64,000 nt of DNA from Candidatus Izimoplasma sp. ZiA1 (GTDB taxonomy: Bacteria; Bacillota_I; Bacilli_A; Izemoplasmatales; Izemoplasmataceae): the NCBI GenBank assembly GCA_002285055.1, contig NQYJ01000003.1:62001-126000 (forward strand). Reading direction: 5' to 3'. A program made the position numbers and the translations under genes. Below the pieces are notes generated by a model, which was not told where the DNA came from, ran no database searches, and saw only the letters and a program-made list of their open reading frames with translations. Of the stretch, positions 18,254 through 31,182 are shown in pieces (position 1 is the first letter of the stretch; each line of letters opens with the position of its first letter).

Positions 18254-19168
18254 ATGAATGAGATTAAGTTAGCAGGTACAAAGGGAATTGATTTACATTT
18301 ATATGAATACTTAGTTGATGAACCAAAAGCAATTTTTCAAATTTTTCATGGTATGGGTGAACATGCTAAAAGATATGATCATTTCGCAAAGTATTTAAAC
18401 AAAAATGGTTTTAGTGTGTATATGCATGACCATCGAAAAATGGGTAAAAGTGTAGATAGCGAGGAAAATGTCGGTATTTTTGATGAAAACGATAAATGGG
18501 AGTATGTCATCGATGATTGCGATATAGTAAATCACTATATTAGAAAACATAACAAAGACTTAAAAGTGATAGTTTTTGGTCATTCAATGGGTAGTGTTAT
18601 TGCTAGAAGATATTTACAAAAATATGGAGACAGAGCAGATTATGGTATTATCATGGGAACGCTCCCTCCAATTGGAAAAGTACAGGGGTTTTTAATGGTC
18701 TCACTAGCTAAAGTTTTAAGTTTGTTTAATAGAAGTAACAAAAGAAGTCAGTTTTTAGGAAAAACACTTAACAAACCTTTAAACAAAGACTATGAACCAT
18801 CAGCAACACATTTTGATTGGTTGACTACGGATCAAAAGCAAATTGATAAATATGTATTAGATCCTTTATGTGGATACAATTATTCGACTAAATTTTACCT
18901 TGAGTTTTTTAAAGCGATTGTAAAAGTAAACAAAAAAGAAAATATCCTTGAAACACATGACTATCCTATTCTTTTTATAGCAGGTAAAGATGATCCTGTT
19001 GGTGAAAAAGGAGCAGGCGTAAAGAAAGTGCACAGCATCCATAGAAACCTTGGATTCAGCCAAGTAGAGCTGTTATTAATGGATGGAATGCGACATGAAG
19101 TGCTTAATGAAACTAACAAGAAGAAAACTTATGATGCAATATTAAAATGGTTAAATCCTAAATTGTAA
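18254..19168 (+). CDS. Alpha/beta hydrolase, lysophospholipase/monoacylglycerol-lipase type
   Basis: 304 residues from ATG 18254 (AAAGGAGAGATATT precedes); an in-frame start at 18209 would lie inside the upstream gene. Oxyanion region FHGMGEHAKRY, nucleophile Ser111 in GHSMGS, acid in AGKDDPVG, and catalytic His in MDGMRHEVL. This matches Hydrolase_4 (PldB/monoglyceride lipase). Likely cytosolic, acting on lysolipids or monoglycerides. Third gene of the pcp operon. Confidence 0.88.
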   Translation: MNEIKLAGTKGIDLHLYEYLVDEPKAIFQIFHGMGEHAKRYDHFAKYLNKNGFSVYMHDHRKMGKSVDSEENVGIFDENDKWEYVIDDCDIVNHYIRKHNKDLKVIVFGHSMGSVIARRYLQKYGDRADYGIIMGTLPPIGKVQGFLMVSLAKVLSLFNRSNKRSQFLGKTLNKPLNKDYEPSATHFDWLTTDQKQIDKYVLDPLCGYNYSTKFYLEFFKAIVKVNKKENILETHDYPILFIAGKDDPVGEKGAGVKKVHSIHRNLGFSQVELLLMDGMRHEVLNETNKKKTYDAILKWLNPKL

Positions 19169-19234
19169 AAATAGTTTTTAATATAAATTATATTGCATTA
19201 TTGATTTTTGTGTGATAAATTAAAGTAGTATAAA

Positions 19235-19326
19235 ATAGATATTCAAAGGGCAAATACATAGAAATGTGTAGACGCAAAGTCACAGAGCTAAAGGTTAACC
19301 TATGCTGGCTGGGCCGCAATATTTAT
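19235..19326 (+). ncRNA. Cyclic-di-GMP-I riboswitch aptamer (GEMM-I)
   Basis: Matches the GEMM-I pattern. P1 pairs ATAGATATT (19235-19243) with AATATTTAT (19318-19326). GGGCAAA (19248-19254) is followed by a hairpin TACATA-GAAA-TGTGTA (19255-19270) with the conserved GNRA loop. Then comes the invariant GACGCAAAG (19271-19279). CTAAAGG (19288-19294) and CCTATG (19299-19304) form the tetraloop-receptor side of P3, and GCTGGGCC closes it. It lies about 135 bases before the first mreB and no other aptamer copy was seen. Confidence 0.92.
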
Positions 19327-19397
19327 ATAGTGAAATCATTTTTTTGTCTCTTATGATGGAAAAATATTTTTCAATCTTTTACATATTGTGTAAAGCA

Positions 19398-19426
19398 AAG
19401 TCCTTAGATTCTAGGGACTTTTTTGT
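19398..19426 (+). terminator. Leader terminator of the c-di-GMP riboswitch (expression platform)
   Basis: Ten-bp stem AAGTCCTTAG/CTAGGGACTT (one G-T) with a 3-base loop, then TTTTTTG, 36 bases before the first mreB start codon. This makes a transcription-termination switch likely. A competing antiterminator is not obvious: the aptamer's P1 3' strand AATATTT could pair with AAATATT about 30 bases downstream. Whether c-di-GMP turns the operon on or off cannot be decided by eye. Confidence 0.8.
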
Positions 19427-19461
19427 TTATTTTATACACAAAAATATATAGGAGGAAAAAT

Positions 19462-20493
19462 ATGAGTGAAAAAGTAAAAGACAAACTTAGTGTTGGCGTT
19501 GATCTTGGAACGTCAAACTTACTTATCTACGTTGAAGGACGTGGAACTTTGTTTAATGAACCATCAATTATCGCTATTGATAAGGCTTCAAACAAAGTAG
19601 TTAGTGTTGGGTTTGAAGCTCAAGAACTTGTGGGGAAAGTACATGATAAGATTGAAGTTGTTAAACCACTTAGCGGTGGAGTAATCGCGGATATTGATAT
19701 GATTAAAGAATTACTTATTTATACGCTAGAAAAAATTTTCTTATCTAATTATAGTCAAATAAGTAAATTACTAATATGTATACCCTCAGAAATAACTGAG
19801 ACTGAAAAATCAGCAATTCGTCAATTAGGTTTAGAATTAGGAATTGAGAATACAATGATTGATGAAGAAATTAAAGCAGCAGCAATAGGTGGAGGACTAG
19901 ATATATTTACGCCAAATGGACACCTAGTAGTTGATATTGGTGGTGGAACAACTGACTTTGGAGTACTAAGTCTTGGAGATGTTGTACTATCAAAATCAAT
20001 AAAAATTGCAGGTGATTATTTTGACAGACAAATTACAGATTATATTAAAGAACAACATAAACTAGAAATAGGACCTCAAACAGCGGAAAGAATCAAAGTA
20101 AAATTGTCAAGTTTAACTGGAGATTTTCCAAAAGATGAGGAAGGTCAAAGAATAATATGTGATGCTATGGGTAGAGATTTAGTAAGTGGTTTGCCTCGTA
20201 GTGTGCAAGTTGAAGCAGAAGAAGTTAGAGAAGTATTACTAGCATGCTTTGAATCAATTAAATCAACATTAATTTCAACTTTAGAATCAACTCCACCAGA
20301 ACTAGCTGGTGATTTAGTAGATAATGGAATTATTTTAACAGGTGGTGGCTCACAAATTCTAGGTATAAAAGAGTATTTTGAAGAAATCGCACAAGTAGAA
20401 GTCCAAATTTCCCTTTCACCAATGACTGCGGTTGTTGATGGTACAAAAAGGTTGTTAAAAATGGAAAAAAAGCACTACTTTGGCGAATATTAG
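19462..20493 (+). CDS. mreB: MreB-family actin homologue, paralogue 1
   Basis: 343 residues from ATG 19462, after AGGAGGAAAAAT; an in-frame start at 19423 lies in the leader terminator region. Actin-fold motifs: phosphate-1 VDLGTSNLLIYV (residues about 13-24), phosphate-2 DIGGGTTDFGVLSLG, adenosine ILTGGGSQI. The usual catalytic Glu of TTE is Asp here, and EEPMAAAIG is EEIKAAAIG. It forms ATP-dependent filaments at the membrane and organises cell shape or motility. First gene behind the c-di-GMP riboswitch; no mreC, mreD or rod genes are nearby. Confidence 0.93.
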   Translation: MSEKVKDKLSVGVDLGTSNLLIYVEGRGTLFNEPSIIAIDKASNKVVSVGFEAQELVGKVHDKIEVVKPLSGGVIADIDMIKELLIYTLEKIFLSNYSQISKLLICIPSEITETEKSAIRQLGLELGIENTMIDEEIKAAAIGGGLDIFTPNGHLVVDIGGGTTDFGVLSLGDVVLSKSIKIAGDYFDRQITDYIKEQHKLEIGPQTAERIKVKLSSLTGDFPKDEEGQRIICDAMGRDLVSGLPRSVQVEAEEVREVLLACFESIKSTLISTLESTPPELAGDLVDNGIILTGGGSQILGIKEYFEEIAQVEVQISLSPMTAVVDGTKRLLKMEKKHYFGEY

Positions 20494-20503
20494 GAGGTAA
20501 CTA

Positions 20504-21517
20504 ATGAGTGAAAAATTAGGTTTAGGAATCGATTTAGGAACTACAAATTTACTCGTATATCTTGAGAAAAAAGGTATTATATTTAATGAGCCTAGTGTAA
20601 TTGCATTTGATAGAGAATCAGGTCAAATTGTTGCAGCTGGTACAGATGCGCACCAAATGCTTGGGAAAGTACATGGTAAAATATCTGTTATAAAACCATT
20701 AAAAGATGGAGTAATAAGTGATATGAGAGCCGCAAAAGAATTACTTAGTTACGTTATAGGGAAAGTAGAAAATCTAACTGAGAAAGATTTATCAAAAACA
20801 GCCAGTGTTATTTGTTGTCCAAGTGAGGTAACAAAAATAGAACGAGATGTTATGGTTGATCTTGGAATGAGTATGGGTATAAGTGAAGTATTTATAGAAG
20901 AGGAAATAAAAGCAGGAGCTCTTGGAGCTAATGTTGATATATTTAAATCAAAAGGTGTAATGATCGTTGATATTGGTGGAGGAACTACCGATGTAGGTGT
21001 TATATCTTATGGTGATATTGTGCTTTCTAGGACAATTAGAATGGCCGGAAACTACATTGATAAGGAATTAACAAAGTTAGTTAAACAAAAAGATCGAGTT
21101 GAAATTGGCGAGTTAACAAGTGAAAAATGTAAAATGGAACTTGCAGATTTAAGAACTAATGGCAATCTGATTACAAATAGATATGCAGGTAGAGACATTG
21201 TACGAGGTGTTCCTAAATGGGTAGATATCTCAAGTGAAGATGTTAAACAAGTAATTACTCCAGCAATGGAAGAAATTGTAAAATTAATTACAGCAGTATT
21301 AAAAGATACACCTCCTGAACTAAGCGCAGACATTTATCAAAACGGTATTTTATTAACTGGTGGCGGAGCACTAATTAGAGGTATAGATACATTTATAAGT
21401 GATAGAATTAAAGTTCCTGTAAATGCGGTAAGTAATCCTTTAACTTGTGTAGCAGAAGGTACAAAATATTTGTTAAAAAACAAAGGTAACTATTTAGTTA
21501 ACCCTTTGAAACTGTAG
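20504..21517 (+). CDS. mreB: MreB-family actin homologue, paralogue 2
   Basis: 337 residues starting after TTAGGAGGTAACTA, 10 bases past the first paralogue. Motifs: IDLGTTNLLVYL, VDIGGGTTDVGVISYG and LLTGGGALIRG. It has the same TTE to TTD change; EEPMAAA is EEEIKAGALG. The C terminus NKGNYLVNP differs from paralogue 1 and resembles paralogue 3. Cytosolic filament subunit, probably co-assembling or specialised relative to its neighbours. Confidence 0.93.
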   Translation: MSEKLGLGIDLGTTNLLVYLEKKGIIFNEPSVIAFDRESGQIVAAGTDAHQMLGKVHGKISVIKPLKDGVISDMRAAKELLSYVIGKVENLTEKDLSKTASVICCPSEVTKIERDVMVDLGMSMGISEVFIEEEIKAGALGANVDIFKSKGVMIVDIGGGTTDVGVISYGDIVLSRTIRMAGNYIDKELTKLVKQKDRVEIGELTSEKCKMELADLRTNGNLITNRYAGRDIVRGVPKWVDISSEDVKQVITPAMEEIVKLITAVLKDTPPELSADIYQNGILLTGGGALIRGIDTFISDRIKVPVNAVSNPLTCVAEGTKYLLKNKGNYLVNPLKL

Positions 21518-21527
21518 AGGTGATATA

Positions 21528-22565
21528 ATGGATAAAAAAAATAAGATTAATGATGTAAAGAAATATAGTAAAATTGGGATTGATTTAGGTACTGCAAACC
21601 TATTAGTTTATGTAGATGGAGAAGGAATTATATTTAATGAACCAAGTGTTATAGCGTTAGAATACTCTACAAATGAAGTTATTGCTGTTGGAACTAATGC
21701 AGCTAGAATGATTGGTAGAGGACATCATGGAATAAAAATAGTTAGTCCTTTAAATCAAGGAGTAATTTCAGATATGATAGCAGCAAAAAAGTTAATTGAG
21801 ATAGCTATTAAAAAAGCTGAAAATACAGATATCAATCTATCTGCAAGTACAGTACTAATTTGCTGTCCTAGTGAGGTAACTCAGATTGAGAGAGATTCAA
21901 TGGTTGATCTTGCAAAAAACCTGGGTGTACCTGATGTATTTATTGAAGAAGAAGTTAAAGCTGGTGGAATTGGAGCTGGACTTGATGTCTATTCATCAAA
22001 TGGTTCAATGGTTATTGACATTGGTGGTGGTTCGACTGACATCGGAGTTTTATCTCTGGGTGACATTGTAGTGAGTGAATCACTAAGAATTGCTGGAAAC
22101 TATTTTGATAATGAGATAATTAATTACATGCAATATAAACATGGATTACTTATTGGAAAAAGAACTGCTGAAAGAATAAAAGAAGAAATCGGATCTTTAA
22201 GAAAAGTAGTTGATCCAAGTAAGAACTCTTATGCAAATGGTAGAGATGTTGTTTCTGGACTTCCAAGAAAAATCCAGGTCACTCAAGAAGAAGTTAGAGA
22301 CATTCTTTTAGAACCGTTTGAATCAATCGTAAACTCAATTTTAAAAGTGCTACAAAAAACACCAGCAGAGTTAAGTGCAGACATAATTGTAAATGGAATG
22401 TTTGTTAATGGTGGTGGAGCACTTATAGATGGTGTAGACGAGTATATAAAAGACAAAATCGGTTTAGAGGTTCATATTGCAAAAAATCCTTTAACAGCAA
22501 TAGTTGAAGGAACAAAAGTTCTACTGCAAAATCGTGGAAACTATTTTGTTAAACCAGTGGACTAG
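21528..22565 (+). CDS. mreB: MreB-family actin homologue, paralogue 3
   Basis: 345 residues. It has an N-terminal extension of about 15 charged residues before GIDLGTANLLVYV. Other motifs: IDIGGGSTDIGVLSLG and FVNGGGALIDG, so the adenosine motif reads NGGG in place of TGGG. The catalytic TTE is STD. Start ATG follows AGAGGTGATATA. The stop overlaps the start of the degenerate GGDEF-EAL gene by one base, tying that protein to the filament genes. Confidence 0.93.
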   Translation: MDKKNKINDVKKYSKIGIDLGTANLLVYVDGEGIIFNEPSVIALEYSTNEVIAVGTNAARMIGRGHHGIKIVSPLNQGVISDMIAAKKLIEIAIKKAENTDINLSASTVLICCPSEVTQIERDSMVDLAKNLGVPDVFIEEEVKAGGIGAGLDVYSSNGSMVIDIGGGSTDIGVLSLGDIVVSESLRIAGNYFDNEIINYMQYKHGLLIGKRTAERIKEEIGSLRKVVDPSKNSYANGRDVVSGLPRKIQVTQEEVRDILLEPFESIVNSILKVLQKTPAELSADIIVNGMFVNGGGALIDGVDEYIKDKIGLEVHIAKNPLTAIVEGTKVLLQNRGNYFVKPVD

Positions 22566-24016
22566 TGAGTGTTTATATTAGTAATTATATAAAAGTTTTT
22601 CTAGTAGTATTTCTTATACTAACGAATTATTTTATAGATGATTATACATATGTCAGATTATTATTAAATATAATAATTGGACTGTACATCATTTTTACTG
22701 CTTTTTACAACTCAAGACCAATATCAAACACAATCTCAAAAAATAAAATTAATTTGTCATTTAAAAACAAAAATGCAAATAACTATTTTGTTGTACTAAT
22801 TGAAATGACAAATATGAACATTTACTCGCAGTTTTATGACTTAGAGATTCCTGACTTAATACTTAAAAAGATATTTGGTTGTTTGAAAAAAAATATTGGT
22901 GACTCAAAAGTATTTAAATATTCAGAAAATCAAATAGCCGTTGTTATAAGATTTAATGAACTAGAAATACTAAATGATAAAATAAGGTATAACGAGCAAC
23001 TTCTGTGGGCAAACAAACTTAAAATAATGATAAAAAAATATCCCATATTATCTAATACCTCGACTGATAATATTAAAGTAGAAATGTCTATGGGAGTTGC
23101 TGCTAATACTTTTCTTTACAATATGAACAACATGGATGAGCTAGTCAGATTAGCTCATTTTACACTCATTGAAGCTAAAAAAAGGAAAGTAGAACTTCTT
23201 ATCGCAGATGAATCAATTAAGGCAATTAAGAAAGATTTAGACGAGTTTACACATGCTTTAGAAGCAGGCTTTAAACGAGATGAGTTCAATCCTTTTTACC
23301 AACCAATATTAGAACCAACAAACTTAAAAGTTGTTGGTCTTGAAGCTTTAGTTAGGTGGCAAAAAGACTCTTATAGAATAATAGAAGCCTCAAAATTTAA
23401 AGACATTGCAACAGAGAAAGAGTTGTTTGGAAAAATCGATACTATTATTATTAAAAAGACTCTTATAATGTACCAATACTTAAGAACAAGAGGAATAGTA
23501 AGTGATGATTTCTTTATTGTAGTAAACTTATCAAAAGATACTTTATTAAATACTGACTTTAATGTTTTTAAAGAGTTATTATTTACATATGAAGTTGAGA
23601 GTGAACAAGTAGAATTTGATATTCAAATTGATGATAAAATTACTGATATTCATATGCATAAAATTAGAAGACTTAAAGAACTTGGATTTAAAATATCCTT
23701 AGATAACTTAAGTCTAAATAATTTGAATATTGACTTAATAGTGAAGTTGAATATCGATTCGATAAAATTTAATGTTAACTTTTTGAATAACCTTCAGCAT
23801 TCTGATAAAGAGGATTCAATATTAGAAATGTTATTTAATTTTACAAAAAAATATAAAATAAAAACATATCTAAAAGGAATTGAAAATAAGCAAGATCTGC
23901 TTTATACAAAAAAATCAGATGTAGATTACTTGCAAGGCTATTATTTTACAAAACCATTAGATAAAGAAAATATAATGAATTTTATTAAGAAATATGAACA
24001 CGGTATTGCTATTTAG
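22565..24016 (+). CDS. Membrane protein with degenerate GGDEF and EAL domains
   Basis: 483 residues from a GTG overlapping the mreB3 stop. Two N-terminal membrane helices (about residues 7-50) lead to a GGDEF-like domain whose signature is lost (YSENQIAVVI stands there), then an EAL-like domain from about residue 235. EAL itself (EALVRW), VNLS and QGYYFTKP remain. But the ELTES glutamate, DDFGTG (LDNLSLN here), the KID lysine (LNIDSI) and EGVE (LKGIEN) are altered. So it is very unlikely to hydrolyse c-di-GMP. It may bind it and signal to the MreB proteins; that is inference. Confidence 0.88.
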   Translation: MSVYISNYIKVFLVVFLILTNYFIDDYTYVRLLLNIIIGLYIIFTAFYNSRPISNTISKNKINLSFKNKNANNYFVVLIEMTNMNIYSQFYDLEIPDLILKKIFGCLKKNIGDSKVFKYSENQIAVVIRFNELEILNDKIRYNEQLLWANKLKIMIKKYPILSNTSTDNIKVEMSMGVAANTFLYNMNNMDELVRLAHFTLIEAKKRKVELLIADESIKAIKKDLDEFTHALEAGFKRDEFNPFYQPILEPTNLKVVGLEALVRWQKDSYRIIEASKFKDIATEKELFGKIDTIIIKKTLIMYQYLRTRGIVSDDFFIVVNLSKDTLLNTDFNVFKELLFTYEVESEQVEFDIQIDDKITDIHMHKIRRLKELGFKISLDNLSLNNLNIDLIVKLNIDSIKFNVNFLNNLQHSDKEDSILEMLFNFTKKYKIKTYLKGIENKQDLLYTKKSDVDYLQGYYFTKPLDKENIMNFIKKYEHGIAI

Positions 24017-24020
24017 AAGA

Positions 24021-24048
24021 AGAAGTTTAATAAAAGCTTCTTTTTTTA
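24021..24048 (+). terminator. Intrinsic terminator of the mreB operon
   Basis: Stem AGAAGTTT/AAAGCTTCT with one bulged G, loop AATA, and T run. Confidence 0.8.
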
Positions 24049-24132
24049 TCAAAATGTTAAATTAGTCCTTATAAAAAACTATATAAAATGGTAAAATATA
24101 TATGGACGAAAACAATTCTATGGAGGTAAGTT

Positions 24133-26781
24133 ATGGCTGAAAAAAAAGAAAGAGTGTTAATAGAATTAGAGAAGAAATATTTGAAACTTACAAAAGAAGA
24201 CATTAAAACTGTCGATTTTATTGATAAGTTAGATAAAGATTATTCTACTAAAATTTTAAAAGCACAAAAGGATTTAGAAGCTTTAAAAGCAGAGAAACAA
24301 AAAAACGATAAGAATATCGAAAGTAAAAAGAATAAGCTTATTAAGGATTTAATGGCTAAGTTTACTCTTGATATGAAAAAACAGAATGAAATTATCAAAA
24401 CAAGTAAAGAAAATTTATCAGCAGCTGAGTTAAAATCACGACAAAAACTAGAAAAATCACAAGATAAAATTAATTTGGATAAAGAAAAACTTAGCAATAC
24501 TTTTGATAAAAATAAGGAAAAACTAGAAAATGATTCTGCGTCTTACTTTGCTAAGTCAGAAAAAGCAATTCTAGGGTTTGAAAAAACATCTAAAGAAAAG
24601 CATGATGAACTCGTTTTGAAACAAGAGGAGTTCACTAATAAACATAATTTAAAGTTAGAAAAAATTAATAATAAAAGAGATACTGATGTTGAAAAAATTG
24701 AAAAGCAACTTGAAAAGTCAATCAAGACATTAACAAAGGAAGTTGCTGATCTTAGAAAACAAGCCAAAATTGAAATTGACAATCTTGGACCTGTTTTAGA
24801 TGAAAAATCTGCAAAACTACTTGAGGAAATTAGTGAAATTGAAACTAATCATAATGAAAAAGTTGGTTCGATTAAAGCTGAAACAAAATCTAAATTAGAT
24901 AGACATCAGGAGTTCTTGGATAGAGCTATTAAAGAAAATGATGTTAAATCACAAAAACTTCATAAAAAAGAGATGTCACAATTATCTAAATCTACGGATT
25001 TAACTGTCTCTACAATGACTAAAGCTTATGAGGATTCAAGAGTTTCATTAGATGCTAAAATTAGAGACTTAAAAACAAAAGCAATTAACGATGAGAAACA
25101 AATTAATAAAGAGTTAGAAACTCAAGTTTTGCTAAAAGATGAAAAAATTTCTTCAATAAAAGCTGAATCTGCATTTGAAATTGAAAAAACAAAAATTGAA
25201 GCAGAGAAACAATTGAAAAATGAAGAAGATAAACTAAATTTATACAATAGTGATAAGTTTAAATTAGATTTTAAAATTGAAGAGGAAAAGGACATTTTTA
25301 TTGCAAATGAATTAGCTAACCAAGAATCAAATAAAATTGAACTTGAAAAAACTCTTTTAGTTTTAAAAGCTGAACTTAATAAGAATATTCTAAAAAAATC
25401 AAATGAGATCGACCAAAATGTTTTAACAAGTGAAAAAGAAATTATTCTTGCAAAAAAAGATTGTGATGATATAATTGCGAAATCTGAAAGTAACATAGAA
25501 TTTTTAACTCATAAAATTGAAGTTGATAAAGAATTGGCCTTTTTAAATGCTGAGCAAGAGTTCTATGAAAATGATTATCTTAAACAAGAGGATATTAGTA
25601 AGGACTTTAGAGAACATCAATCTAACAATTTAAATATTACCGTTGAAAGAGAAGAAGCATACCAGGCTTACTTAAAAACTGAGATTGATAATAGGTTACT
25701 ACTTAATGTAGCTCAACTTGAGAAGCAAATTGGACATAAAGAATCTGATTTCTTAGATTTAACATCTAAAATTGAATCTCAATTTGAAGAAGAAAAAGCT
25801 TTATTTGATAAGGAAATAATGTTGGTAGCTCAAGATTTATTACTTGAAAAAAACGAATTAGATAAAGAACTACAAAGCTATATATCAAATATTGACAACC
25901 AAATAAGCGAGTTAGATAAGAAAAAAGACAAAAAGAAAATAAAACTTTTAAATAAAGATTTAGAAGTGAAAAAATTAAGCTTAAATCAAAAAATTTCAGA
26001 AATTGAATATAAATTGAGCTTGAAAACTGCAGTTTACGATAAAGGTATTGCAGATGCTTTAACTCGTAAGGAAATAGCTTTAAAAGAGGCAGAAACTGTC
26101 AAAGTTGTTTCTATCGATAACTTAAAAAAATGTATAGAGTACACAAAAGAACTTGCTAATAACGAACTAGACATGCATGATAATAGAGTTAAACTTAACA
26201 AAGAACTAAAAGAATCATTTAACAACCAGGCTCAAGTAAGAATGAACACACAAAAAAGTGAGAACAAGGAGTATTTATCTTTAAGAGTCAAAGGAGAATC
26301 TGTTAAAATTATTGCTTTAAATCAATCATTTGCTAATTTCAAGTTTTCTATTAGTGAAAAGATAGACGCTGAGTTAAAGAAAATTCAACTTAAACTAGAT
26401 TTTGATTTGAATGCTAATAGTAATAAAAGTTTAGAAGTTAATAAAGAGTTTGAAATGAAAATAATTAGTGAGGATAACTTAATAAGAAAAATTCAATCTG
26501 ATGCTAATAAAAAGTTTTCTGATAGTGCACTAATTAAAAGCAACAAACTAAAAGATATAAATCTTAGTCTTATTGAAAACAATTCATCTGTAGACAAAAA
26601 AAGAGCATCATATGTTAATAGCTATAAAGAGTACATAAAAAACTTAGAAATAAAAAAGTTTGAAGCAAACAAAGTTTATAACGCTGAATTAGTAAAATAT
26701 CAAAAAGAAAAAGATTTAAAAACAAAACAAAAACTTGCTGAAATTGAGCAATTAACAAAGGAAAAAATTACAAAAATTTAA
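24133..26781 (+). CDS. Large cytosolic coiled-coil protein
   Basis: 882 residues with no signal peptide or membrane helix. Lys, Glu, Leu, Asp and Asn dominate, with heptad spacing over nearly the whole length and few prolines: a long rod is expected. It has no recognised domain; SMC/Rad50 ATP sites are absent. The size and composition suit a filament or scaffold, such as an intermediate-filament-like protein. It lies 117 bases after the mreB operon behind its own ribosome site (TGGAGGTAAGTT) and between two terminators, so it is a separate transcript. The link to MreB is by position only. Confidence 0.8.
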   Translation: MAEKKERVLIELEKKYLKLTKEDIKTVDFIDKLDKDYSTKILKAQKDLEALKAEKQKNDKNIESKKNKLIKDLMAKFTLDMKKQNEIIKTSKENLSAAELKSRQKLEKSQDKINLDKEKLSNTFDKNKEKLENDSASYFAKSEKAILGFEKTSKEKHDELVLKQEEFTNKHNLKLEKINNKRDTDVEKIEKQLEKSIKTLTKEVADLRKQAKIEIDNLGPVLDEKSAKLLEEISEIETNHNEKVGSIKAETKSKLDRHQEFLDRAIKENDVKSQKLHKKEMSQLSKSTDLTVSTMTKAYEDSRVSLDAKIRDLKTKAINDEKQINKELETQVLLKDEKISSIKAESAFEIEKTKIEAEKQLKNEEDKLNLYNSDKFKLDFKIEEEKDIFIANELANQESNKIELEKTLLVLKAELNKNILKKSNEIDQNVLTSEKEIILAKKDCDDIIAKSESNIEFLTHKIEVDKELAFLNAEQEFYENDYLKQEDISKDFREHQSNNLNITVEREEAYQAYLKTEIDNRLLLNVAQLEKQIGHKESDFLDLTSKIESQFEEEKALFDKEIMLVAQDLLLEKNELDKELQSYISNIDNQISELDKKKDKKKIKLLNKDLEVKKLSLNQKISEIEYKLSLKTAVYDKGIADALTRKEIALKEAETVKVVSIDNLKKCIEYTKELANNELDMHDNRVKLNKELKESFNNQAQVRMNTQKSENKEYLSLRVKGESVKIIALNQSFANFKFSISEKIDAELKKIQLKLDFDLNANSNKSLEVNKEFEMKIISEDNLIRKIQSDANKKFSDSALIKSNKLKDINLSLIENNSSVDKKRASYVNSYKEYIKNLEIKKFEANKVYNAELVKYQKEKDLKTKQKLAEIEQLTKEKITKI

Positions 26782-30012: not shown

Positions 30013-31182
30013 ATGCTTGACTTAAGAACAATTACTTTTATTCATCCGCTTGCTAATTTACTAGCAATACTATATTTGTATTTTATCTATAAAAATGGAC
30101 GTAAATATTTTAAGGCAATTACACCTTTTTTTAATGGATATTTACTTATTCTATTAGGGACAACACTAATATTCTTAAGGGAAGTAATTCCATTTGTCAT
30201 AAGTACTACAATAGGAAATGGGATTATTTTTATTGGTATGATTTTTGTTGCTAAATCACTTTCGATGATTTATAACCAAAAAATCAAACCAAATAAACTT
30301 TATGTTTTAGTCTTTATTTATTCACTTTTTAACATTTATTTTACTATAAGCTATGACAATTTTACTGTTAGGGTTATTTTATTTAGCTCAATGTTTATAA
30401 TTACGACACTTTACGCTATTAGAGTTTTATTAAAAGATTTTACAGAAGAAAAATTTAACGATTATCTGATGATTTTAATATCATTAAGTATTTTTGTTAT
30501 TACATATATAGTCAGAATTATATTTGCCTTAATCTATGATCCAGGTGTTGGTTTCTTTGAAAGTAGTAACACAGAAGTTGTTTTAAGTGCCATATCAATG
30601 TTTAATGGAATATTGCTTGTTATTTCATTTGGAATCATGCTTCATAATATATTAATTAGGAAGTTAGATAAGTATCATAAGGAAACTGAGGAAAAATATT
30701 TTTTCGAAAAAGAGAGAGCTGAAAAAGATCAACTTAGTGGGTTGAATAATCGAAGTAAATTAGAAGAACTTCTCGATTATACTGCTAAAGAATCTTTAAA
30801 GATAAAAAAACCGTTTTCAATATTATTTTTAGATATTGATGATTTTAAGGTAATCAACGACACGTTTGGACATGCGGAGGGCGATCGAGTTTTAAAAGAG
30901 GTGTCTGAAGTATTAGCTAATTCTATCCGTGAGACCGATATAATCGGCAGATGGGGTGGAGACGAGTTCTTAATTATTTTAAGACAATGCGATTTTGAAA
31001 ATGCACATAGGATTAAAGAAGTTATATCATCAAATGTAAAGGAAAAATTATTGGTCTTGGGAAAGGGTGCTATGGTAAGCATTGGTATCAGTGAATACAA
31101 TAAAGGTATCACATTAGAAGATTTAATAAAAAAAGCAGATGAGAATCTATACATTGAAAAAAACAAAAAGAAAATGAGATGA
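30013..31182 (+). CDS. Membrane diguanylate cyclase
   Basis: 389 residues: about six or seven N-terminal membrane helices (to about residue 210), a short coiled linker, then a GGDEF domain. The signature GGDEF is intact (residues 315-319), the metal Asp is in FLDIDDFKVIND, and an inhibitory site RETD (306-309) sits five residues upstream. So it should make c-di-GMP from GTP with product inhibition. The sensory domain is an unassigned 7TM-like module. The stop is TGA, and a DUF1295 gene begins 4 bases later. Confidence 0.93.
   Translation: MLDLRTITFIHPLANLLAILYLYFIYKNGRKYFKAITPFFNGYLLILLGTTLIFLREVIPFVISTTIGNGIIFIGMIFVAKSLSMIYNQKIKPNKLYVLVFIYSLFNIYFTISYDNFTVRVILFSSMFIITTLYAIRVLLKDFTEEKFNDYLMILISLSIFVITYIVRIIFALIYDPGVGFFESSNTEVVLSAISMFNGILLVISFGIMLHNILIRKLDKYHKETEEKYFFEKERAEKDQLSGLNNRSKLEELLDYTAKESLKIKKPFSILFLDIDDFKVINDTFGHAEGDRVLKEVSEVLANSIRETDIIGRWGGDEFLIILRQCDFENAHRIKEVISSNVKEKLLVLGKGAMVSIGISEYNKGITLEDLIKKADENLYIEKNKKKMR

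Follow-up and report, generated by a model that had tools for sequence, protein, structure and literature searches.

A c-di-GMP-I riboswitch probably acts as a transcriptional OFF switch for an operon holding all MreB genes of a Candidatus Izimoplasma genome

Known control of movement by cyclic di-GMP (c-di-GMP) acts on flagella, pili and adhesins. Here we analysed a leader and four genes on the forward strand of Candidatus Izimoplasma sp. ZiA1 (assembly GCA_002285055.1, contig NQYJ01000003.1, positions 62,001 to 126,000; this whole stretch of 64,000 nucleotides is called the window, and coordinates count from its first base). A c-di-GMP-I (GEMM-I) aptamer and an intrinsic terminator precede three tandem mreB genes, the only ones in the genome, and a gene for a degenerate GGDEF-EAL protein. 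We consider it probable that the aptamer belongs to a c-di-GMP-I riboswitch standing first in a four-gene operon, and that this riboswitch is a transcriptional OFF switch. The genes and principal leader elements are as follows.

19239–19321, + strand: c-di-GMP-I (GEMM-I) aptamer (RF01051, 66.7 bits)
19397–19421, + strand: intrinsic terminator stem-loop, its 5′ arm also serving as antiterminator strand 2 (terminator scan and folding)
19462–20493, + strand: mreB1 (PF06723, 367.5 bits)
20504–21517, + strand: mreB2 (PF06723, 369.1 bits)
21528–22565, + strand: mreB3 (PF06723, 387.7 bits)
22565–24016, + strand: degenerate GGDEF-EAL protein (PF00563, 139.2 bits; PF00990, 25.1 bits)
24020–24047, + strand: weak terminator-like stem and T-run behind the unit (by eye; below scan criteria)

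The initial annotation of this locus had recognized a GEMM-I aptamer by its GAAA loop and receptor and had proposed a scan with the c-di-GMP-I model. The RF01051 covariance model matched 19239–19321 on the + strand over its full length (model positions 1–87; E = 7.1e-11), far over the cut-off of 35 bits and as the sole above-cut-off Rfam match within the window, and its alignment displays the core GGCAAA, the GAAA loop, GACGCAAAG and the CUAA receptor. Behind it, the terminator forms 11 pairs followed by TTTG; its stem ends 40 bases before the mreB1 ATG (19462), or 36–37 bases counted from the end of the T-run, in line with the distance of about 36 bases first noted. Seven terminator-like sites occur in 18900–24300, compared with 1.3 expected from shuffles. 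Only one further RF01051 match turned up in the genome (C13:58340-58424, locus L011); it lies 3.6 kb before the window, upstream of a GGDEF protein.

The three mreB genes are separated from one another by 10 bases each, and mreB3 and the EAL gene share one base; the tight packing described at the outset was borne out by measurement. The four genes are presumably co-transcribed. All three MreB translations contain DIGGG[TS]TD, which we take to be the MreB phosphate motif, and the nearest solved relative of each is MreB5 of Spiroplasma citri (7bvy; 282, 279 and 288 bits for MreB1, MreB2 and MreB3). We took the unit to comprise four genes because of the terminator-like stem behind the EAL gene, which is weak in the window and clearer by eye in most other copies of the arrangement (aptamer, three mreB genes and EAL gene; hereafter the cassette). 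This stem, together with conservation, MreB exclusivity and switch geometry, is added here to the earlier reading. Behind the stem, an 882-aa lysine- and glutamate-rich protein without a Pfam family adjoins the cassette (24133–26781) and could be a filament partner; of 10 distinct cassettes examined, 7 are followed by a similar long frame, the exceptions being G016, G032 and G101 (two of these frames run off the end of the sequence taken). A membrane diguanylate cyclase with an intact GGDEF motif is encoded 6 kb behind the cassette (30013–31182).

The operon accounts for all MreBs of the window's genome. We scanned eight cassette genomes of the order Izemoplasmatales and nine Izemoplasmatales without the cassette with PF06723: each of the eight yielded the three operon MreBs plus one extra match (64–78 bits), and each of the nine yielded a single match of the extra type only (67–83 bits). 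The extra match, a frame of 608–635 aa in cassette genomes, was checked in five of the 17, among them the window's genome, and is DnaK in all five. Three other genomes of the class were scanned, and MreBs were present in each (one canonical MreB each in G094 and G100, five clustered MreBs in G096), so that the rule 'no cassette, no MreB' holds for the order only, with G087 excepted.

We next consider how widely the cassette is conserved. RF01051 matched in 74 of 101 genomes, the window's own included (E ≤ 0.001), and in 0 of 14 control genomes. Sixty regions, mostly from the window's family, were taken around RF01051 sites among the matches listed, some sites at contig ends being left out; MreB1 lies downstream of the aptamer in 11 of them and, within the limits of each contig, MreB2, MreB3 and EAL come next. 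(Loci L091, L092, L093, L094, L097 and L101 are, in this order, those of genomes G044, G047, G040, G032, G006 and G029 and were counted once.) An MreB1 search at E 1e-60 matched 16 of 90 genomes of the order: 13 of these belong to the window's family, two (G064 and G086) to another family, and the last is G087. The aptamer stands just before MreB1 in 13/13 family genomes that have MreB1 and in two Spirochaetia metagenome-assembled genomes (MAGs), confirming that the arrangement recurs in relatives, where the initial annotation had proposed to look for it. Records carrying the cassette are named as Candidatus Izemoplasma, Mycoplasmatota and Tenericutes MAGs, one as Bacillales and two as Spirochaetia.

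The arrangement varies outside the family and in incomplete genomes. In G086 the EAL gene is preceded by two aptamers, and MreB3 lies on a separate contig; by eye, these aptamers are both complete, each with a terminator-like stem, and flank a short open frame before EAL (L107, 1414–2022). G064 has its genes in the order EAL-MreB1-2-3, on a contig that starts inside an aptamer-like tail, from which we infer an aptamer before EAL. G047, a 75%-complete genome in which MreB was not found, has an aptamer directly before its EAL gene. At locus L096, mreB1 has an internal stop and the other frames are short, and this cassette may be decaying or badly assembled. Both Spirochaetia MAGs carry the full set of aptamer, MreB1-2-3 and EAL, although the frames are broken in one of them, and they alone among 148 genomes searched around the first of them gave an MreB1-type match above 550 bits. 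Contamination as the source of these copies is unsupported, since cassette G+C (53% and 44%) fits that of the surroundings; the cassettes of the window and L091 have 31%. Neither Spirochaetia genome has an FlhA match, and both encode a single transpeptidase and a single FtsW/RodA.

In a tree of 56 MreBs, cassette MreB1 (13 rows), MreB2 (14) and MreB3 (14) each form a group supported at 100/100 that unites Izemoplasmatales and Spirochaetia rows. MreBs from the clusters of G096, G118, G141 and G173 attach to the MreB2 side with weak support (85/70) and to the MreB3 side at 98/88; no cluster attaches to MreB1. The tool issued a long-branch warning for this tree, and L096 mreB1 was left out (frames below 250 aa). 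Three relatives of the Spirochaetia genome G101 (loci L126, L127 and L128) encode MreBs of the MreB2 and MreB3 kinds, with RF01051 not found on the stretches examined.

The protein encoded by the fourth gene has two helices at its N terminus and is probably anchored in the membrane. Its predicted model (mean predicted local distance difference test score, pLDDT, 77.7) matches GGDEF-EAL structures, best 5m3c (E = 1.6e-25). In an alignment inspected by eye, the GGDEF active-site motif is absent from 10/10 homologues. Within the EAL domain, whose catalytic motifs we take to have their usual roles, the same ten proteins all have Asp (D352) for the first Glu of ExTE, and in DDFGTGYSS all have A, N or T for the second Asp and have lost the loop. 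The protein is presumably a c-di-GMP receptor or scaffold. It is rather unlikely that, instead of being a degenerate sensor or a partner of the filaments, it is an active phosphodiesterase feeding back on the switch, a role in keeping with the retention of E260, N321, D380, K401, E440 and Q457 in all ten homologues and with the good fold match to c-di-GMP-bound EAL domains; such activity would be compatible with riboswitch control of the operon.

To describe the switch, we compared 18 leaders. Thirteen stand before MreB1 in the family genomes that have it, one stands before the EAL gene of G047, two come from G086, and G064 and G101 contribute one each. Left out of the counts were G102 (L096), in which a terminator was not found, and a further G064 leader whose aptamer is truncated where the contig starts. 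The further elements of the leader are these.

19193–19221, + strand: possible leader promoter TTGCAT-17-TAAATT, weak here (read from the sequence)
19228–19244, + strand: leader 5′ strand, identical with the P1 5′ strand (alignment of 12 leaders)
19246–19251, + strand: antiterminator strand 1, AAGGGC, including aptamer-core bases; partner at 19400–19405 (GUCCUU) (folding and pairing analysis)
19315–19322, + strand: anti-P1 strand 1, CGCAAUAU, the aptamer 3′ strand (free-RNA fold)
19383–19390, + strand: anti-P1 strand 2, AUAUUGUG (leader alignment and folds)
19426–19437, + strand: UUUAUUUUAUAC behind the terminator, a complement of the 5′ end of the transcript (alignment of 12 leaders)

In all 18 leaders the terminator starts 64–159 bases behind the aptamer, and we found it combined with a mutually exclusive antiterminator that uses aptamer bases, with G010, G027, G040 and G086b as exceptions. 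When the terminator was forbidden, most of 13 leaders paired their 5′ strand (core GGGC) with the terminator 5′ arm; the pairs read CAAAGG/CCUUUG in G010, UUAAGG/CCUUAA in G044, CAGGGGC/GCCCCUG in G086 and AAGGGC/GUCCUU in the window. Cognate antiterminator duplexes exceeded permuted ones (P = 6e-5 for the 18 leaders, P = 0.002 for the 14 family leaders). In transcripts that stop short of the terminator 3′ arm, GGC of the core paired with the 5′ arm at a mean probability of 0.90 for cognate arms, 0.15 for swapped arms and 0.26 for shuffled ones; an 'aptamer closed' value of 0.00 arises by construction and was not counted.

A second helix involves the other side of the aptamer. AUAUUGUG or AUAUUGCG is present at anti-P1 strand 2 in 14/14 family leaders, and the free-RNA fold forms the helix between CGCAAUAU and this strand (19315–19322 with 19383–19390) in 11 of them. 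A classical antiterminator built from the aptamer 3′ strand found no support, since its partner AUAUUGUG lies outside the terminator arms, and the anti-P1 helix and the terminator can therefore coexist. Leader bases 19228–19239 are also complementary to 19426–19437 behind the terminator, a pairing that might serve as a closing helix of the readthrough transcript; by eye, the two segments covary in G029.

Because the antiterminator and the aptamer core share the same bases, ligand binding should favour the terminator, and the leader is most likely a transcriptional OFF switch. At low c-di-GMP, AAGGGC would pair with the terminator 5′ arm as the arm emerges, and in the window's family the aptamer 3′ strand would be held by AUAUUGUG; transcription would then continue into mreB1-2-3. 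Once c-di-GMP was bound, the core bases would be locked in the aptamer, the terminator would fold and MreB synthesis would stop.

Several results weigh against this account or narrow it. The anti-P1 helix appears in the free-RNA folds of 0/4 leaders outside the family, where its second strand is missing. Permutation tests restricted to one leader per genus gave weak results (P = 0.024 and P = 0.079, each from 7 leaders), so shared ancestry may explain part of the low P value, and two of the 18 leaders come from a single genome. G010 pairs better with swapped arms (0.99) than with its cognate arm (0.67), G086b still reaches 0.55 with arms swapped, and cognate pairing is weak in G027 (0.24) and G040 (0.56). 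G087, with 6% contamination, has a single lower-scoring MreB-like gene and no cassette. At equilibrium, the full leader without ligand folds the terminator at a probability of at least 0.92 in 15/18 leaders; with the terminator so dominant, switching would have to be kinetic, the ON state arising by kinetic trapping.

The dominance of the terminator in free RNA would also suit the opposite sign, in which ligand relieves termination, for example by breaking an unseen inhibitory fold, and c-di-GMP raises MreB. Such a geometry exists at 9 of the 36 other RF01051 loci that we surveyed, most of them in the order. At those nine loci, however, the terminator and the aptamer 3′ end have 7–20 bases in common, whereas here the terminator starts 64–159 bases behind, and none of the nine lies in a cassette genome. 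A terminator 5′ arm complementary to the aptamer-core strand is, moreover, the arrangement of an OFF switch, and we regard an ON switch at this operon as improbable. Ten proteins downstream of other RF01051 loci were also classified by Pfam: a prepilin peptidase, a signal peptidase, a GGDEF protein and a trypsin-like protein, one each, five without any Pfam family and one below the cut-off.

A genuine riboswitch could matter little if another promoter mainly drove mreB, and the initial annotation had named a promoter between terminator and mreB1 as the finding that would make the leader irrelevant. Our consensus scan listed no + strand promoter-like site between the terminator and the mreB1 ATG, which agrees with the absence of a clear promoter there, though weak matches may be present: across 12 leaders, sites in this interval score 6–8 of 12, one scoring 8 being common to three leaders of one genus, and their start would fall at or behind the ribosome-binding site. 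A site scoring 9 of 12 at 19330–19357 lies between aptamer and terminator, but it sits upstream of the latter, and promoter-like sites as a whole are at chance level (28 observed, 28.7 expected). The proposed upstream promoter is no better in several leaders (6–11 of 12): among the same 12 leaders, G016 and G032 score 10 and 11 (TTGACA-17-TAGACT/TAGAAT), and the rest 6–10 at varying positions. With the leader arrangement retained in another family and a second phylum, we judge it very unlikely that the leader is of little importance. Control of MreB expression by c-di-GMP through GEMM-I, as originally suggested, thus emerges as the best reading, given the strong RF01051 match, the conserved placement and the lack of a clear intervening promoter.

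By what we take to be the numbering of the aptamer, the base equated with G20 is G in 18/18 leaders, not A as in cGAMP-binding mutants. Together with 25 GGDEF matches over the cut-off in the 1.88-Mb genome, the degenerate one included, this makes another dinucleotide ligand such as 3′,3′-cyclic GMP-AMP (cGAMP) the least probable alternative, even though cGAMP-binding GEMM-I-like aptamers exist and G20A GEMM-I binds cGAMP (PMC6274999, in excerpt). The aptamer would on this evidence bind c-di-GMP.

The MreBs of these wall-less cells are unlikely to serve wall elongation. RodA/FtsW, penicillin-binding protein transpeptidase and FlhA were not found in the window's genome. RodA/FtsW is absent from 17/17 Izemoplasmatales tested, 8 cassette genomes of the order among them; the transpeptidase is likewise absent from 17/17 (15 cassette genomes of the order tested), and FlhA exceeded the cut-off in 0/19 (again 15). 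Peptidoglycan loss in Izemoplasmatales has been published (PMC10868615, in excerpt). Because cassette genomes of the order are without elongasome and flagellar genes, MreB filaments may determine how the cells are shaped or how they move, as those of Spiroplasma do. Cultured zrk13 (1,958,905 bp, 38.2% G+C as a whole) appears to carry the cassette, and cultured zrk29 (1,808,583 bp) appears to be without MreB. Zrk13 is described as coccoid without a flagellum, so that no shape effect is on record; this counts against a role in shape or, alternatively, is what an operon switched off in culture would give. By contrast with neither, zrk29 is described as coccoid and non-motile. The proposed control makes the shape and motility of Izemoplasma testable.

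In the open-licence literature, no title or abstract start among the matches listed ties a c-di-GMP riboswitch to mreB; papers containing both 'c-di-GMP riboswitch' and 'mreB' do not link the terms in the passages available. 'Izemoplasma' occurs with 'c-di-GMP' in no paper there, and 'GEMM', 'mreB' and 'riboswitch' occur together in none. Our analysis suggests that c-di-GMP, best known for the choice to swim or settle, switches a whole MreB actin skeleton, most likely off; the same messenger appears to govern the transcription of every actin in these wall-less cells. More tentatively, in bacteria without wall elongasome and flagella, both lost, the actin cytoskeleton may have taken the flagellum's place in the motile-or-sessile decision: low c-di-GMP would allow shape and movement by MreB1-2-3, high c-di-GMP would turn them off wholesale, the EAL protein would be a membrane-bound c-di-GMP receptor acting directly on the filaments, and Izemoplasmatales and Spirochaetia would share the module, riboswitch included.

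PA0575, MorA, DosP and LapD share the tandem GGDEF-EAL fold of the window's protein, which unlike them lacks the GGDEF motif, has an incomplete EAL catalytic motif and is encoded with MreB. Several MreB paralogues in a wall-less cell also occur in Spiroplasma, where MreB1-5 form a ribbon; there are five paralogues there and three here, and the excerpted texts mention no riboswitch for them (PMC9710875, PMC9663586, PMC8432965). According to these excerpts, Spiroplasma MreB5 alone confers helicity and kinking on Mycoplasma without efficient swimming (PMC9663586), MreB pairs confer swimming on syn3B (PMC9710875), and Haloplasma contractile has seven MreBs (PMC8432965). Tandem paralogues as in Haloplasma-type clusters also occur in G096, of the same class, whose five MreBs (L112, 2767–10165) join the MreB2 and MreB3 sides; we would guess that this genome is Haloplasma-like. 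Its cluster differs from the cassette in having no MreB1-type member, and RF01051 was not found on the 20-kb stretch around it. The closest parallel for the switch is Cd1 of Clostridioides difficile, an OFF riboswitch of the c-di-GMP-I class that precedes flagellar genes (PMC9262584, in excerpt, here and below). Both have the same aptamer class with a separate, downstream terminator; in Cd1, as predicted here, the antiterminator must break the aptamer and switching is kinetic, the Cd1 antiterminator refolding to the terminator with time. The antiterminator here pairs the aptamer 5′ strand with the terminator 5′ arm, whereas Cd1 uses 3′ strand A with T and H, and the anti-P1 helix and the complementarity of the 5′ end to the post-terminator segment, present here, are not seen for Cd1 in the excerpt. 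The target differs as well: flagella in Cd1, mreB here.

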